A stretch of DNA of 64,000 bases from Thiothrix subterranea (GTDB lineage Bacteria; Pseudomonadota; Gammaproteobacteria; Thiotrichales; Thiotrichaceae), in NCBI RefSeq assembly GCF_016772315.1, contig NZ_CP053482.1, positions 248,001 to 312,000 on the forward strand. Direction: 5' to 3'. The position numbers and the translations under genes were made by a program. A model generated the notes under the pieces. It saw nothing but the letters and a program-made list of their open reading frames with translations. It was not told the origin of the DNA and ran no database searches. Shown piece after piece: positions 53,419 through 62,242 of this stretch. Every line of letters starts with the position of its first letter. Position 1 is the first letter of the stretch.

Positions 53419-53465
53419 TCATTTCGTGAAATTTACAGACAGGAATTTGAAGTGATAATTGACCT

Positions 53466-53517
53466 AAGCAAGCAAGCAAGCAAGCAAGCAAGCAAGCAAG
53501 CAAGCAAGCAAGCAAGC
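53466..53517 (+). repeat. AAGC tetranucleotide tract, 13 units (phase-variation tract 1)
   Basis: Thirteen uninterrupted AAGC units between the GTG at 53452 and the signal-peptide coding region of the outer-membrane barrel gene. With 13 units the GTG frame hits TAA at 53521 directly after the tract, so the gene reads OFF from that start. Twelve units would join GTG to the barrel frame, encoding repeated KQAS before the signal peptide. Confidence 0.93.
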
Positions 53518-53545
53518 AGCTAATTCTCTAGCCTCATGGCTGCTG

Positions 53546-54415
53546 TTGCCAGCCATTTTCCTGTTTTTATCCTTCCCCACCTACGCCGACCTTCCGCTAA
53601 CCGTTGAAAACCTGCTCAGTGACAAGGGCAAAGCTCGCTTTGAATTTTCTGCCAATTATGCCAATTCTGAGCGGCGTGGTGTCGATGTTTCTGACACGAT
53701 TGCTGTCCAAACAGGTACAGCCAGTTTTGTTAATGTACCCTCCCAAATCGGGGAACGTCTGAGCAATACCGATGCGTTAGTGACAACGGCGGGCATTCGC
53801 TATGGTCTGAGCAAAAATACCGAAATTTACACTTCTGCTACCGCCTTTGGAGTGGATAGTCGTTCAGAAAGTGGGGAGGGTGTTGTCTCTAAGCGCAACG
53901 ATAGCCATTTCTCTGATGCATGGGTGGGAGTAAACCACCGTATCCGCGATGATACTGATAAACCTGCCATTTTTGGATTCACAGAATTGCAAGTGGCAGA
54001 ACGTCAAACGGGCGGTAACACTGCCTACGGCAAGTCCCTGCTGGTTGGCATGACCACCTATCAAACCTATGACCCTGTAGTGCTTGCCCTCACGGGGGCT
54101 GTCCAACTCAATACCAACCGCAAAGATGGCGATACCGATTACCGCCCCGGTAACAGCTTAAGCATTTCCCCGACCGTAGGGTTTGCAGTCAACGATAAGG
54201 TGACTCTTTCCTCTGGTTTGAACTGGAGAATGCAGCAAGCAGATACCCGTGATGGAGAAACTCAAGGTATCCGCCGTACCAGTACCAGCCTTGACCTCGG
54301 TTTGGGTTATGCCTTTAGCAAACACGACACGCTTGATGTCAGTGTCCGCCCACAAGTTTCCGGTGATGGTGATGTTCAAGTCGGAGTGGCTTGGCTTCAT
54401 CGTCTGGAAAAATAG
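53546..54415 (+). CDS. Outer-membrane beta-barrel protein, cassette 1 (phase-variable)
   Basis: The open body begins at a TTG at 53546 (289 codons). The intended start is most likely the GTG at 53452, placed after promoter and AGGAA, but it is out of frame with 13 AAGC units. Upstream in-frame codons complete a signal peptide (ANSLASWLLLPAIFLFLSFP, ending TYA). The mature protein alternates short polar/hydrophobic strands typical of a small beta-barrel, with a terminal VQVGVAWLHRLEK strand. It resembles the putative-transporter barrels (phenol-degradation MetA-like family, PF13557); this family call is tentative. The next gene encodes a small secreted peptide 39 bp downstream, so it may be the outer-membrane exit or a surface receptor. 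Confidence 0.72.
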   Translation: MPAIFLFLSFPTYADLPLTVENLLSDKGKARFEFSANYANSERRGVDVSDTIAVQTGTASFVNVPSQIGERLSNTDALVTTAGIRYGLSKNTEIYTSATAFGVDSRSESGEGVVSKRNDSHFSDAWVGVNHRIRDDTDKPAIFGFTELQVAERQTGGNTAYGKSLLVGMTTYQTYDPVVLALTGAVQLNTNRKDGDTDYRPGNSLSISPTVGFAVNDKVTLSSGLNWRMQQADTRDGETQGIRRTSTSLDLGLGYAFSKHDTLDVSVRPQVSGDGDVQVGVAWLHRLEK

Positions 54416-54454
54416 CGAAATCTCGCAAAACTTTATTAACTAAGGAGAAAATCC

Positions 54455-54721
54455 ATGAACCAATTGAAACAAGTATTGATCGCTTCCGTGCTAACTGTTA
54501 GTCTCGCCGGTGTTGCTATTGCTAACCCTGCGGTGCAGAATAATGACCTTAATCAGGTTTTTAATGGTCAAACTGCTATTGAATCCGTACAGGCAACAGC
54601 ATTATCAGATAAAGAAATGCAAGCGACTGAAGGTGAATTCTGGCCTGTTTTTTGGGCTCTTGCAGCAGTTGCTCTTGGGGTTAAAGGATCTACAAGAGGT
54701 TGCGGAGGTCGTCGCTGCTAA
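54455..54721 (+). CDS. Secreted peptide precursor 1 with signal peptide and bacteriocin-like second leader
   Basis: An 88-residue protein with an AAGGAGAAAATCC ribosome site. Residues 1-23 are a Sec signal peptide (LIASVLTVSLAGVAIA). Residues 24-48 are a polar spacer. Residues 50-60, LSDKEMQATEG, resemble the LSxxELxxIxGG leader cut by C39 peptidases, except that the last position is not Gly (Glu here). The presumed core (61-88) is a tryptophan-rich hydrophobic segment (EFWPVFWALAAVALGVKG) followed by STRGCGGRRC with two cysteines. It is the probable substrate of the C39 peptidase in the cassette. A bacteriocin role is inference. Confidence 0.72.
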   Translation: MNQLKQVLIASVLTVSLAGVAIANPAVQNNDLNQVFNGQTAIESVQATALSDKEMQATEGEFWPVFWALAAVALGVKGSTRGCGGRRC

Positions 54722-54757
54722 TTAGGCAAGTTAACTACAATTAGCTTATTTAGAAGA

Positions 54758-60490: not shown

Positions 60491-60496
60491 ATGAAT

Positions 60497-60913
60497 TCAG
60501 TAGTTTTTGATTCGCATGGCAGTGCGCAAATTGTGCAAACCACAAGCGATTTCCATCACTAAATCATCAAAATCTTCCACGTAGTTGCGGAAAATATCTT
60601 TGACGCACCGACACCGTTTGATACCGCTGTTCACATGTTCAATGACCACCCGAATGCTAGAAATGGCACGATTATGCGCTTTATCCTTATCACTCAAGGG
60701 TTTACCTCGTGGCTTTTTCTTGGGTTGGTGGACAACTGCCCCGTCACCCGAATTATGCCCCAGATAGCCCAAATCCCGGTAAATCTCATACCCTTCTGGC
60801 ACTTTCACGCCTTCCTCATCCGCGATACGTTTGTCATGGTCTTTGCCGCGTCGTGTTTCTCCCAAGTATTTGATTTCACGATCTTCTAAGCCTGCTATTA
60901 TGTTGTTCTTCAC
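60497..60913 (-). CDS. IS5-like transposase, C-terminal frame (orfB)
   Basis: 138 codons starting KNNIIAGLEDREIKYLGE. It holds the C-terminal part of a DDE transposase: IYRDLGYLGHNSGD with a conserved Asp region, RAISSIRVVIEHVNSGIKRC with the catalytic Glu, and a C-terminal LRTAMRIKNY. It is expressed by -1 frameshifting on an A8 run at the end of orfA, giving the usual YYSGKKKFHSVKNN junction. Confidence 0.85.
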   Translation of the reverse strand: MKNNIIAGLEDREIKYLGETRRGKDHDKRIADEEGVKVPEGYEIYRDLGYLGHNSGDGAVVHQPKKKPRGKPLSDKDKAHNRAISSIRVVIEHVNSGIKRCRCVKDIFRNYVEDFDDLVMEIACGLHNLRTAMRIKNY

Positions 60914-61470
60914 CGAATGGAATTTTTTTTGCCGCTGTAGTATTCCTCCTGAACCCCAATGTCAGTCGGACGTTGAATACGGCGTTCTGTCGCATCCAAG
61001 CCAAGCGCTTGTGGCATTTCATGCGAAAGGCGTTCCAATACCTCTTCGGGGAGTCTGGCCGGGGAATGTCCCATGCTTTTTAAGCTCGACTGCAAAACGG
61101 GACACAGGCGATGTATCCACCGATTGGCTAACCCTTGGGACATATTGAAGGAGTAGCCCAACACTTCTTGCAGTGGGTAAGTCTTCAAATAATACAGAAT
61201 AAAGAACAACTTATCTTCGATCGTTGTCAGGTTGCCGGGGCGACCTCGCTTCGTTTCACTCTCATGACCATCCACAATCAACTGCGCCGTGTATGCCCGT
61301 TGAAAATGGGGCAACAGTTTGGTGAATTCACCCAGATCTATGCCTGTCATGGCGCGGAAGGTTTTGCTCTTGCCTTTGAGCGCATGGTAGCTGTACTCTG
61401 TCATGAGTGTTCCGTTCCCTTGGTGAAAATGATGATCATAGGTTGTAGCGCATTCCCGTTGATTTTTCAC
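60910..61470 (-). CDS. IS5-like transposase, N-terminal frame (orfA)
   Basis: 186 codons with an N-terminal helix-turn-helix region (RPGNLTTIEDKLFFILYYLK then PLQEVLGYSFNMSQGLANRW). The first DDE residue is in QALGLDATERRIQRPTD. It ends YYSGKKNSIR just after the A8 slippery sequence. It overlaps orfB by 4 bp. Confidence 0.87.
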   Translation of the reverse strand: MKNQRECATTYDHHFHQGNGTLMTEYSYHALKGKSKTFRAMTGIDLGEFTKLLPHFQRAYTAQLIVDGHESETKRGRPGNLTTIEDKLFFILYYLKTYPLQEVLGYSFNMSQGLANRWIHRLCPVLQSSLKSMGHSPARLPEEVLERLSHEMPQALGLDATERRIQRPTDIGVQEEYYSGKKNSIR

Positions 61471-61517
61471 ATGATTTGTTGACTAGGGACAAGTGCGAGA
61501 TTTTGGAATAATGTCTA

Positions 61518-61589
61518 TTATTTTACTGGATTATATTTAGATGGTTTCCACGAAAAGCAGCGATGCCCGCATTGCAGGAGAATATATGA
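61518..61589 (+). pseudogene. Detached 3' end of CPBP protease 2
   Basis: 24 codons including stop, reading LFYWIIFRWFPRKAAMPALQ then ENI. They align with the end of CPBP 1 (FWLIVFKWFPRRQ). The stop TGA overlaps the ATG of the C39 gene (ATGA), so before the IS landed the protease and C39 peptidase were translationally coupled. Confidence 0.8.
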
Positions 61590-62242
61590 AACGAGTGGTT
61601 TTTGTACTTGGCTTACTATTGGCAAGTCCGCTGTTACAAGCTGATTCCGCTTCATTGCATACTCAAACCCTGATGGGCAATATTCCTGTGCAAAGCTGGA
61701 AAGCCTTGCGTGATGCACGGGTAGTAAAACAGGATAAGGATTATTCCTGCGGTGCAGCATCTATTGCAACCTTATTGACGGAATATTATCAACGTCCTAC
61801 CACTGAGCAAGAAGTGTTGAAGTTATTCATTGATGTGACAGGCAATGATGATGCTGCCTCTTTCGCCGACATGGAAGCAATTCTGCCCAAGCTCGGCTTC
61901 AAAGGCATGGGGCTGGCAACGTCATGGGAACAACTCCTTGCCCTCAAAATTCCGGTGATTGTCTATGTCCGCCAACGTAAGGAAGACCATTTCAGCGTCC
62001 TCAGCGGTATCAGCGATGACAAGGTAAAGCTCTCCGACCCGTCTTTGGGCAACCGCATTTTGACCCGTGGGCAGTTCAAGGAAATCTGGGAAACCCGCGA
62101 GGAACAAGGGCTGGAAGGCAAAATGCTGGCAGTGTTGCCGCAAGATAAAACATTGGCACAACAGGCTGATGGTAGTTTTTTTGCTAAACCGACTTTTTCC
62201 CGCGTCCCCACAGAAGTACTGACGTTACGCCATCATCATTAG
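61586..62242 (+). CDS. Secreted C39-family cysteine peptidase 2
   Basis: A 218-residue peptidase nearly identical to copy 1. The start MKRVVFVLGLLLASPLLQAD gives a signal peptide. Cys55 is in [13 protein letters not shown], His135 in KEDHFSVL and Asp151 in LSDPSLG. It keeps its own ribosome site (GCAGGAG). The IS now separates it from the cassette promoter, so its transcription may depend on the IS or read-through. It ends 7 bp before mfd fragment 3. Confidence 0.85.
   Translation: MKRVVFVLGLLLASPLLQADSASLHTQTLMGNIPVQSWKALRDARVVKQDKDYSCGAASIATLLTEYYQRPTTEQEVLKLFIDVTGNDDAASFADMEAILPKLGFKGMGLATSWEQLLALKIPVIVYVRQRKEDHFSVLSGISDDKVKLSDPSLGNRILTRGQFKEIWETREEQGLEGKMLAVLPQDKTLAQQADGSFFAKPTFSRVPTEVLTLRHHH

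Follow-up and report, generated by a model that had tools for sequence, protein, structure and literature searches.

The window analysed here, a 64,000-nucleotide stretch of the Thiothrix subterranea contig NZ_CP053482.1, contains two consecutive gene cassettes. Each of them combines a FapF-like outer-membrane barrel, a small precursor with a Sec-type signal peptide followed by a second leader, a small membrane protein, a CPBP intramembrane protease and a stand-alone C39 peptidase with its own signal. Taken as a whole, each cassette is probably a peptide secretion operon of the haemocin/Nap type that works on the FapD/FapF export principle. The features of the two cassettes, with positions counted along the window, are as follows.

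53390..53418, forward strand: promoter-like TTGACA-N17-TATAAA upstream of barrel 1, the same in cassette 2 (suggestive only)
53452/53546-54415, forward strand: barrel 1, from a GTG candidate or an internal TTG (Phenol_MetA_deg, 40 bits)
53546..54415, forward strand: barrel 1 frame from the internal TTG, FapF-like outer-membrane channel, mature start DLPLTVENLL
54455..54721, forward strand: precursor 1, 88 amino acids (aa), with LSDKEMQATEG followed by EFWP
54833..55741, forward strand: CPBP/Rce1-like intramembrane protease 1 (EELLFRG, FALPH and HVANN present; Pfam)
55756..55995, forward strand: 79-aa membrane protein, candidate immunity protein (reading of the open reading frame, ORF)
55989..56648, forward strand: secreted C39 peptidase 1, 219 aa, own signal (Pfam, NCBIfam, alignment)
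57944/58031-58900, forward strand: barrel 2, from a GTG candidate or an internal TTG (Phenol_MetA_deg, 35.9 bits)
58031..58900, forward strand: barrel 2 frame from the internal TTG, protein 95% identical to barrel 1
58942..59238, forward strand: precursor 2, 98 aa, with LSNQEMQATEG followed by KIWA
59306..59515, forward strand: 69-aa membrane protein, candidate immunity protein (ORF reading)
59606..60490, forward strand: CPBP protease 2 (Pfam), its 3' end apparently interrupted by an insertion sequence, to judge from the sequence
60497..61470, reverse strand: insertion sequence carrying a pair of transposase ORFs that overlap (HTH_Tnp_4, DDE_Tnp_4; Pfam)
61586..62242, forward strand: secreted C39 peptidase 2, 218 aa, 92% identical to C39 peptidase 1

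In Pfam, the barrels exceed the Phenol_MetA_deg cut-off of 22 bits, the CPBP proteins match the Rce1-like family at 65.6 and 65.9 bits (cut-off 22.4), and the C39 peptidases match Peptidase_C39 at 70.8 and 71.7 bits (cut-off 22). When a barrel profile was compared with solved structures, FapF alone was matched at E values up to 1 (four sequences, best E 5e-4). The NCBIfam model nearest to the C39 peptidases is FapD, at 71.9 and 73.7 bits, below its equivalog cut-off of 330 bits, and the C39 model FilB comes next. Residues Q50, C56, H136 and D152, which we take to be the catalytic Cys, His and Asp and the oxyanion Gln, are invariant in all five aligned C39 sequences, and the presumed CPBP/Rce1 motifs EExxxR, FxxxH and HxxxN were found by reading the translations. 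No family above cut-off was obtained for the 79-aa membrane protein in Pfam or NCBIfam, and NCBIfam gave no match for the 69-aa one. The promoter-like element was read by eye; the promoter scanner required T at the last position and so left it unlisted, and what the scanner did list (21 found against 15.2 expected, standard deviation 4.1) is little above chance.

Sec signals were called from a hydrophobic stretch plus N-terminal charge, together with reading by eye, and both precursors carry one. The leader ends at residue 60 in precursor 1, leaving a cargo of 28 aa with a net charge of +3 and two Cys, and at residue 56 in precursor 2, leaving 42 aa with a net charge of +6. The parts list given for this place in a preliminary description, namely a barrel, a precursor with a Sec signal and LSxxEMQATEG, a membrane protein, a CPBP protease and a signal-bearing C39 peptidase, is borne out in both cassettes. 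Its picture of two cassettes built alike holds for the gene set but not for the arrangement: cassette 1 runs barrel, precursor, CPBP, 79-aa membrane protein and C39, whereas cassette 2 runs barrel, precursor, 69-aa membrane protein, CPBP, insertion sequence and C39.

The second leader is commoner than chance would give. The pattern [LMIV][ST]xxE[ML]xxTEG occurs in 16 of the 2179 ORFs of at least 50 aa in loci L034-L063, all 16 lying in cassettes, and in 1 of 43,580 shuffled ORFs. In a table of 28 precursors (27 from Nap-type loci plus the haemocin protein, both discussed below), the 11-residue motif has M and G in 28/28, E in 27/28, L and S in 26/28 and T in 24/28; these counts include one wrong row, the mis-parsed L100, whose true leader is LSTAEMGEIKGG. 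All 28 leaders have a hydrophobic stretch at the start and are 47-71 residues long, and the cargos of the two-leader precursors range from 26 to 251 aa.

The cargo can change where the leader stops. Between Neisseria bergeri and N. viridiae, the leader is 100% identical over 56 aa and the cargo only 29%; in the DNA, identity is 21/21 in every leader bin and drops to 8/21 at the TEG junction. Similarly, three cassettes of one genome (L102-L104) share 81-86% of their leaders and 26-31% of their cargos, and for the window pair the values are 55% and 14%. L048 and L050, which are near-identical copies, have no such split (cargo 95%). Conservation that ends at TEG in some relatives is the pattern that a cleaved, portable leader with swapped cargo should leave. 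The genome of L102-L104 (G081) holds four cassettes (L101-L104) in the order precursor-C39-barrel; three of its cargos have 209-251 aa and the fourth has 28 aa.

The preliminary description regarded this export system as undescribed and, for known systems, took C39 to be the cytosolic domain of an ATP-binding cassette (ABC) exporter. Both claims had to be given up: the barrel is FapF-like, the C39 peptidase is nearest to FapD, and the same set is present in the nap island of Neisseria and, remotely, in the haemocin operon. FapD is periplasmic and needed for amyloid export, NapP and NapF form a pair of the same kind, and the C39 of the haemocin operon, which has an N-terminal hydrophobic stretch, is accompanied by a barrel and a leader precursor; on these examples, the idea that C39 is known only in ABC exporters was rejected.

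In the Fap system (FapA-F), as in the window, a periplasmic C39 peptidase, FapD, accompanies the FapF barrel; an active-site mutant of FapD abolishes FapC secretion, and FapF is the pore (PMC5557850). FapE, like the window precursors, carries a Sec-type signal and a C39-type leader. Unlike the window system, FapF has a periplasmic coiled coil and a plug, the Fap cargo consists of amyloid subunits, and no immunity genes are described for Fap in the portions of the literature at hand, whereas the window has candidate ones. Export of a Fap-like surface fibre or adhesin, with the cargo assembling outside the cell, would agree with the FapD/FapF homology and with the related genome G013, whose G/S/V-rich cargos adjoin two secreted Q/N-rich proteins. 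We regard this reading as improbable: FapA, FapB and FapC found no match among the cassette proteins scanned with Pfam and NCBIfam, and the window cargos, at 28 and 42 aa, are cationic. Two secreted, Q/N/G-rich, curlin-like-looking proteins with no Pfam match lie by the Nap-type locus L022 of that genome (9107-10009).

According to a 2018 review, fapD and fapF are co-localised in five further phyla, whereas no C39 peptidase had by then been reported in association with COG4313-like pores (PMC6173800). Since the same source describes COG4313 proteins as contributing to the uptake of hydrophobic molecules, and since the Pfam name of the barrel is Phenol_MetA_deg, the barrel could be a small-molecule uptake channel of this kind that stands beside a peptide gene by chance. 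This is very improbable, given that the barrel profile matches FapF, an export channel, and that numerous loci of beta- and gammaproteobacteria, as well as Acinetobacter plasmids, have a precursor and a C39 gene beside the barrel.

A close counterpart is the nap island of Neisseria gonorrhoeae and N. meningitidis, which encodes NapF, a FapF homologue, the GG peptides NapA-C and the C39 peptidase NapP; in the model proposed for it, NapP cleaves in the periplasm and NapF secretes (PLoS Biol 2025, PMC11798529). As in the window, a FapF-like barrel stands at one end and C39 at the other, with leader peptides and small membrane or immunity-like genes between them, and the machinery ends are higher in guanine-plus-cytosine (GC) content than the core (napF 50%, napP 52%, island 38%; PMC11798529). 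The barrel, precursor and C39 of the window family are also present in the Neisseria loci L052 and L053. Both systems have predicted phase variation, but the switch is an AAGC tract in the barrel of the window and poly-G in napR and poly-T in napC of the island, and only the window has CPBP proteases. NapH has been suggested as a possible inner-membrane route for the Naps, and "signal peptide" is not among the main-text words of that paper (PMC11798529); the window precursors, in contrast, bear Sec-type signals. In the stretch from a gonococcal strain (L063), a motif search found no precursor-like leader; its C39 runs off the contig and its barrel frame is short.

A more distant relative is the haemocin operon of Avibacterium paragallinarum p250, annotated as hemocin structural protein, immunity protein, HmcD, C39 and ATPase. 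Profile comparison with hhalign indicates remote homology of HmcD with the window barrel (prob 98.5, E 3e-15) and of the p250 C39 with the window C39 (prob 99.2, E 2e-19), the two peptidases being only 32-33% identical. The operon shares with the window a barrel, a C39 peptidase with an N-terminal hydrophobic stretch, and a precursor with signal and leader, its hemocin structural protein having a Sec-type signal plus LSQKEMSEVKGG. It differs in its gene order, in its canonical GG and in an AAA ATPase gene, for which neither window cassette has an ORF. We take HmcC to be the name of the haemocin C39, which the p250 record itself calls "C39 family peptidase", and presume that the same operon is that of Haemophilus influenzae type b. 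The double-glycine ABC exporters (PCAT) share the C39 domain with the window, as profile matches indicate, and double-glycine bacteriocin leaders have the form LSxxE(L/M)xx(I/T)xG. In these exporters C39 lies on the cytosolic face of the ABC transporter (PMC5557850), whereas the window cassettes contain no ABC gene, their C39 peptidases (219/218 aa) carry a signal of their own, and their precursors start with a hydrophobic signal.

On these grounds, the precursor would cross the inner membrane by Sec and lose its signal peptide. The stand-alone C39 would then recognise the second leader, LSxxEMxxTEG, in the periplasm and cut after G, which would free a short cationic peptide, and the FapF-like barrel would give the released peptide its outer-membrane exit. 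Slippage of AAGC in signal-peptide codons would turn the barrel on or off, and both copies read off here. The CPBP protease and the small membrane protein would most likely provide the producer's immunity; CPBP proteins serve as bacteriocin immunity elsewhere. The peptide itself would most likely be a bacteriocin acting on the membranes of neighbouring or sibling cells. This role, with immunity, is favoured because the window cargos are short and cationic, membrane proteins adjoin them, and haemocin is a bacteriocin.

The main rival to the bacteriocin reading is autolysis or sibling lysis of the Nap kind, in which the same export would deliver peptides that kill their own population and phase variation would split lysing from surviving cells. 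The Neisseria nap loci L052 and L053 are close relatives, both window barrels are off, and the Naps mediate gonococcal autolysis and were inactive against the competitors tried; phase variation is predicted for napR and napC, the latter being mostly off (PMC11798529). Nevertheless, haemocin, whose operon encodes remotely homologous counterparts of these components, has been described as a bacteriocin that acts against other strains, and the presence of two cassettes with differing cargos and immunity-like genes suggests competition. Autolysis appears unlikely.

The distribution of these loci was followed with a C39-alignment search, one genome per species, which gave 30 loci; three of them, L059-L061 (31-37% identity, Fap-like), were set aside. 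The remaining 27, the two window cassettes, L022, six loci of a class-wide sample and two Acinetobacter plasmids make up 38 Nap-type loci, L021 and L023 being repeats of L034 and L036 that were counted once. The class-wide sample contributed eight stretches, two of which repeat L049 and L056, and had a C39 at E <= 1e-40 in 7 of 369 genomes, including that of the window. Twelve plasmid records with matches were found and three were read, and the order-level sample around G174 was one genome. Thus, the cassette set is scattered through the beta- and gammaproteobacteria and is not common. In the phage collection, the search gave two weak matches, to ABC-type proteins. Of the two Acinetobacter plasmids with a cassette, L106 is the mobilizable pTR11_4 of 6.3 kb, and the other is L107.

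The preliminary description would have been undermined if homologous C39 genes had consistently been without a nearby precursor; when this was checked, the leader was present, by pattern or by eye, in 25/38 Nap-type loci, 24 of them with an intact frame and a signal. In the twenty-fifth, L038, there are two copies, of which one runs into the contig end and the other is separated from its signal by a shift of frame. In L046 the leader is broken by a stop. No leader was found in 12/38, and in seven of these 12 (L034, L039, L041, L043, L047, L055 and L057) the contig ends within about 2.2 kb upstream of C39. The Nap-type relative within the genus, G013, has a barrel 55% and a C39 65% identical to those of the window and two precursors, with LSSSEMETTEG and LSMSEMKETEG. 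The window's own genome also contains, elsewhere (C1:1682478-1686081, minus strand; L020 4479-8082), a distantly related barrel and C39 side by side, with a subtilase gene (Peptidase_S8, 76 bits) after them, and a loose motif scan found no leader precursor there. Three genes are laid out similarly in two genomes of the genus, G003 and G009, and in one of the family, G033.

The predicted switch lies at the start of the barrel genes, where the features are:

53452..53454, forward strand: GTG start candidate, with AGGA seven bases upstream, whose frame passes through the AAGC tract (a reading of the sequence)
53466..53517, forward strand: (AAGC)13 tract in codons of the barrel 1 signal-peptide n-region
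57959..58002, forward strand: (AAGC)11 tract of barrel 2

A scan for at least six exact AAGC copies found no third tract anywhere in the 4.08-Mb genome. Three-frame translation indicates that, in both cassettes, the GTG frame through the tract ends short of the barrel, and that translation of the barrel frame gives ANSLASWLLLPAIFLFLSFPTYA, a signal-like stretch, and then the conserved DLPLTV start. Ahead of the internal TTG, this frame contains no ATG or GTG in either cassette. In neither cassette, then, is the barrel in phase with the upstream start, and the internal TTG is the one start left. A repeat tract in the 5' coding part, of a length that shifts the frame, is what defines a phase-variable gene of the simple-sequence-repeat type, and the two lengths, 13 and 11, although the flanks are near-identical, point to changes in the tract. 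In Neisseria autB, AAGC repeats in signal-sequence codons give phase variation, and off is the usual state of the meningococcal gene (PMC5118866). Phase variation of the window barrels by AAGC slippage is therefore plausible. The preliminary description had this gate controlling release or uptake of the peptide; the switch is credible in view of the autB precedent, but uptake is less likely than release, because the genes that accompany the barrel encode a C39 peptidase and a leader peptide that is exported. Among 14 related barrels, 11 have no simple repeat near the start, and homopolymer runs are present in L045, L054 and L063 in the stretch tested. The run in L045 (6121-6132) comprises 12 or more G, occupies a promoter-like spacer immediately before the barrel and may represent transcriptional phase variation.

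The two cassettes diverge unevenly. Their barrels and C39 genes are 93.8% and 92.1% identical in DNA, whereas the precursors, CPBPs and small proteins between them reach 58-67% in global alignment. Composition follows the same division: the barrels have a GC content of 50-52% and the C39 genes of 48-49%, while the core is mostly at 24-44%, save the 28-codon cargo 1 at 52%. Around the cassettes, copies of mfd are found:

39465..42968, forward strand: intact mfd, 1167 aa, from which the partial copies derive or to which they are related
51943..53358, forward strand: partial mfd copy (3' part) before cassette 1, 94.9% DNA identity to intact mfd
56650..57851, forward strand: partial mfd copy separating cassette 1 from cassette 2, internally deleted, 96.6-97.6% identity to intact mfd
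62244..63527, forward strand: partial mfd copy following cassette 2, 95.7% identity to intact mfd

The repeat unit in the window consists of the mfd 3' part plus a cassette, and two of the three partial copies run straight into the barrel promoter region. A conserved link between cassette and mfd was rejected: BLAST comparison with mfd among the reference sequences recovered no mfd ORF from the 30 related loci or from L020-L033, and the copies thus have the appearance of a local duplication. L103 gave a weak match (28% over 141 aa), which was not accepted as mfd.

Several observations weigh against secretion of a bacteriocin from these cassettes. Both barrels are off-frame and an insertion sequence lies in the immunity-like region of cassette 2, and together with the partial mfd copies this would fit a decaying duplicated island whose cassettes no longer function in this strain. 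We find such decay doubtful, less likely even than autolysis: both cassettes retain open frames for C39 and precursor, CPBP 1 is likewise open, the tract lengths of 13 and 11 are as live slippage would give, and off is also the usual state of meningococcal autB (PMC5118866). The word bacteriocin may itself be wrong, given the autolytic gonococcal Naps, which lacked antibacterial activity in the assays reported (PMC11798529). The DNA drop at the leader junction is weak in the window pair, because the window leaders themselves differ, and some relatives have acidic or large cargos (net charge -11 with 209 aa; up to 251 aa). Five leaderless loci, L036, L044, L062, L063 and L097, are not explained by an upstream contig end; the C39 frame is cut in L062 and L063, and the barrel is short in L063 and L097. 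Within the genus, G013 alone of 15 other genomes has a Nap-type C39, G003 and G009 carry distant C39s only, and the G/S/V-rich cargo of G013 (L022), beside secreted repeat proteins, fits other roles. Finally, Pfam found CPBP in none (0/27) of the intervening proteins chosen from 17 related loci, and CPBP was rejected as a constant part of the set.

The same leader logic may extend to Fap. In all 30 distinct strong FapD loci (E <= 1e-60; L031, L074-L085 and L108-L124), the protein at the FapE position, encoded next after FapD, has a Sec-type signal and then a motif such as ELKDAEMAELRG followed by RY, or LSDPELAQMRG followed by RF, and this includes 8/8 loci whose FapD is above the curated cut-off. 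The motif ends in RG, replaced by HG in L122 alone; in an alignment of 29 sequences, R is kept in 97% and G in 100%. Ten of the 30 proteins were checked against the FapE model, and four score above its cut-off while six match below it. The pattern, which was fitted after the sequences were known, occurs in 1/6000 shuffled FapE sequences and in 0/852 other ORFs. As the FapE proteins are mutually homologous, 30/30 represents conservation and not 30 independent events. Two more distant C39 loci speak against this extension: the neighbouring protein in L032 is OmpA-like and does not carry the motif, and L033 is without such a FapE, with other leader-like motifs there. A loose scan of L059 and L060 found no convincing leader. 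Sec-type proteins near distant C39s, with MTDTAMSNATG in L033 (9512-11691) and MSEEQLAAVEGG after the signal in L061 (10737-11108), may be further substrates.

From the presence of the leader in 30/30 strong FapD loci, FapE is predicted to be the substrate of FapD. A 2017 study obtained no peptides from about the first 70 FapE residues and described no canonical C39 sequence in the Fap proteins (PMC5557850); a 2018 review called the FapD substrate "yet to be determined" (PMC6173800), and in 2024 FapD was still called a putative protease (PMC11787515). The open-access literature listed, at the level of titles and abstract openings, mentions neither the FapE motif nor a link of haemocin with Nap or Fap, which is weak evidence of novelty.

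Beyond the window, we lean slightly towards a general Gram-negative route in which a precursor would be exported by Sec, cut at LSxxE(L/M)xx-x-G by a periplasmic C39 and released through a FapF-type exit, the cargo being swappable. Haemocin, the Nap peptides, the cargos of 26-251 aa and FapE, an amyloid protein, would all take this route; a cut of FapE by FapD at RG would license passage, and the gate would be AAGC-switched here. The system is of a known kind; what is new is its scattered spread, the TEG-bounded exchange of cargo, the AAGC tracts and the FapE leader. Haemocin, the nap island and Fap, which the literature, as far as its accessible parts go, treats apart or links in part, would be joined by one shared signal. 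For the Naps, Sec is a possible inner-membrane step, as against the holin-like NapH suggested in PMC11798529, and for Fap a precise predicted FapD cut site can be named in a biofilm-amyloid protein whose processing had been unexplained. As the leaders look portable and the cargo is exchanged where cleavage is predicted, new peptides could be sought along this route, and it would be unusual for peptide release to be controlled at a switchable gate in the outer membrane.

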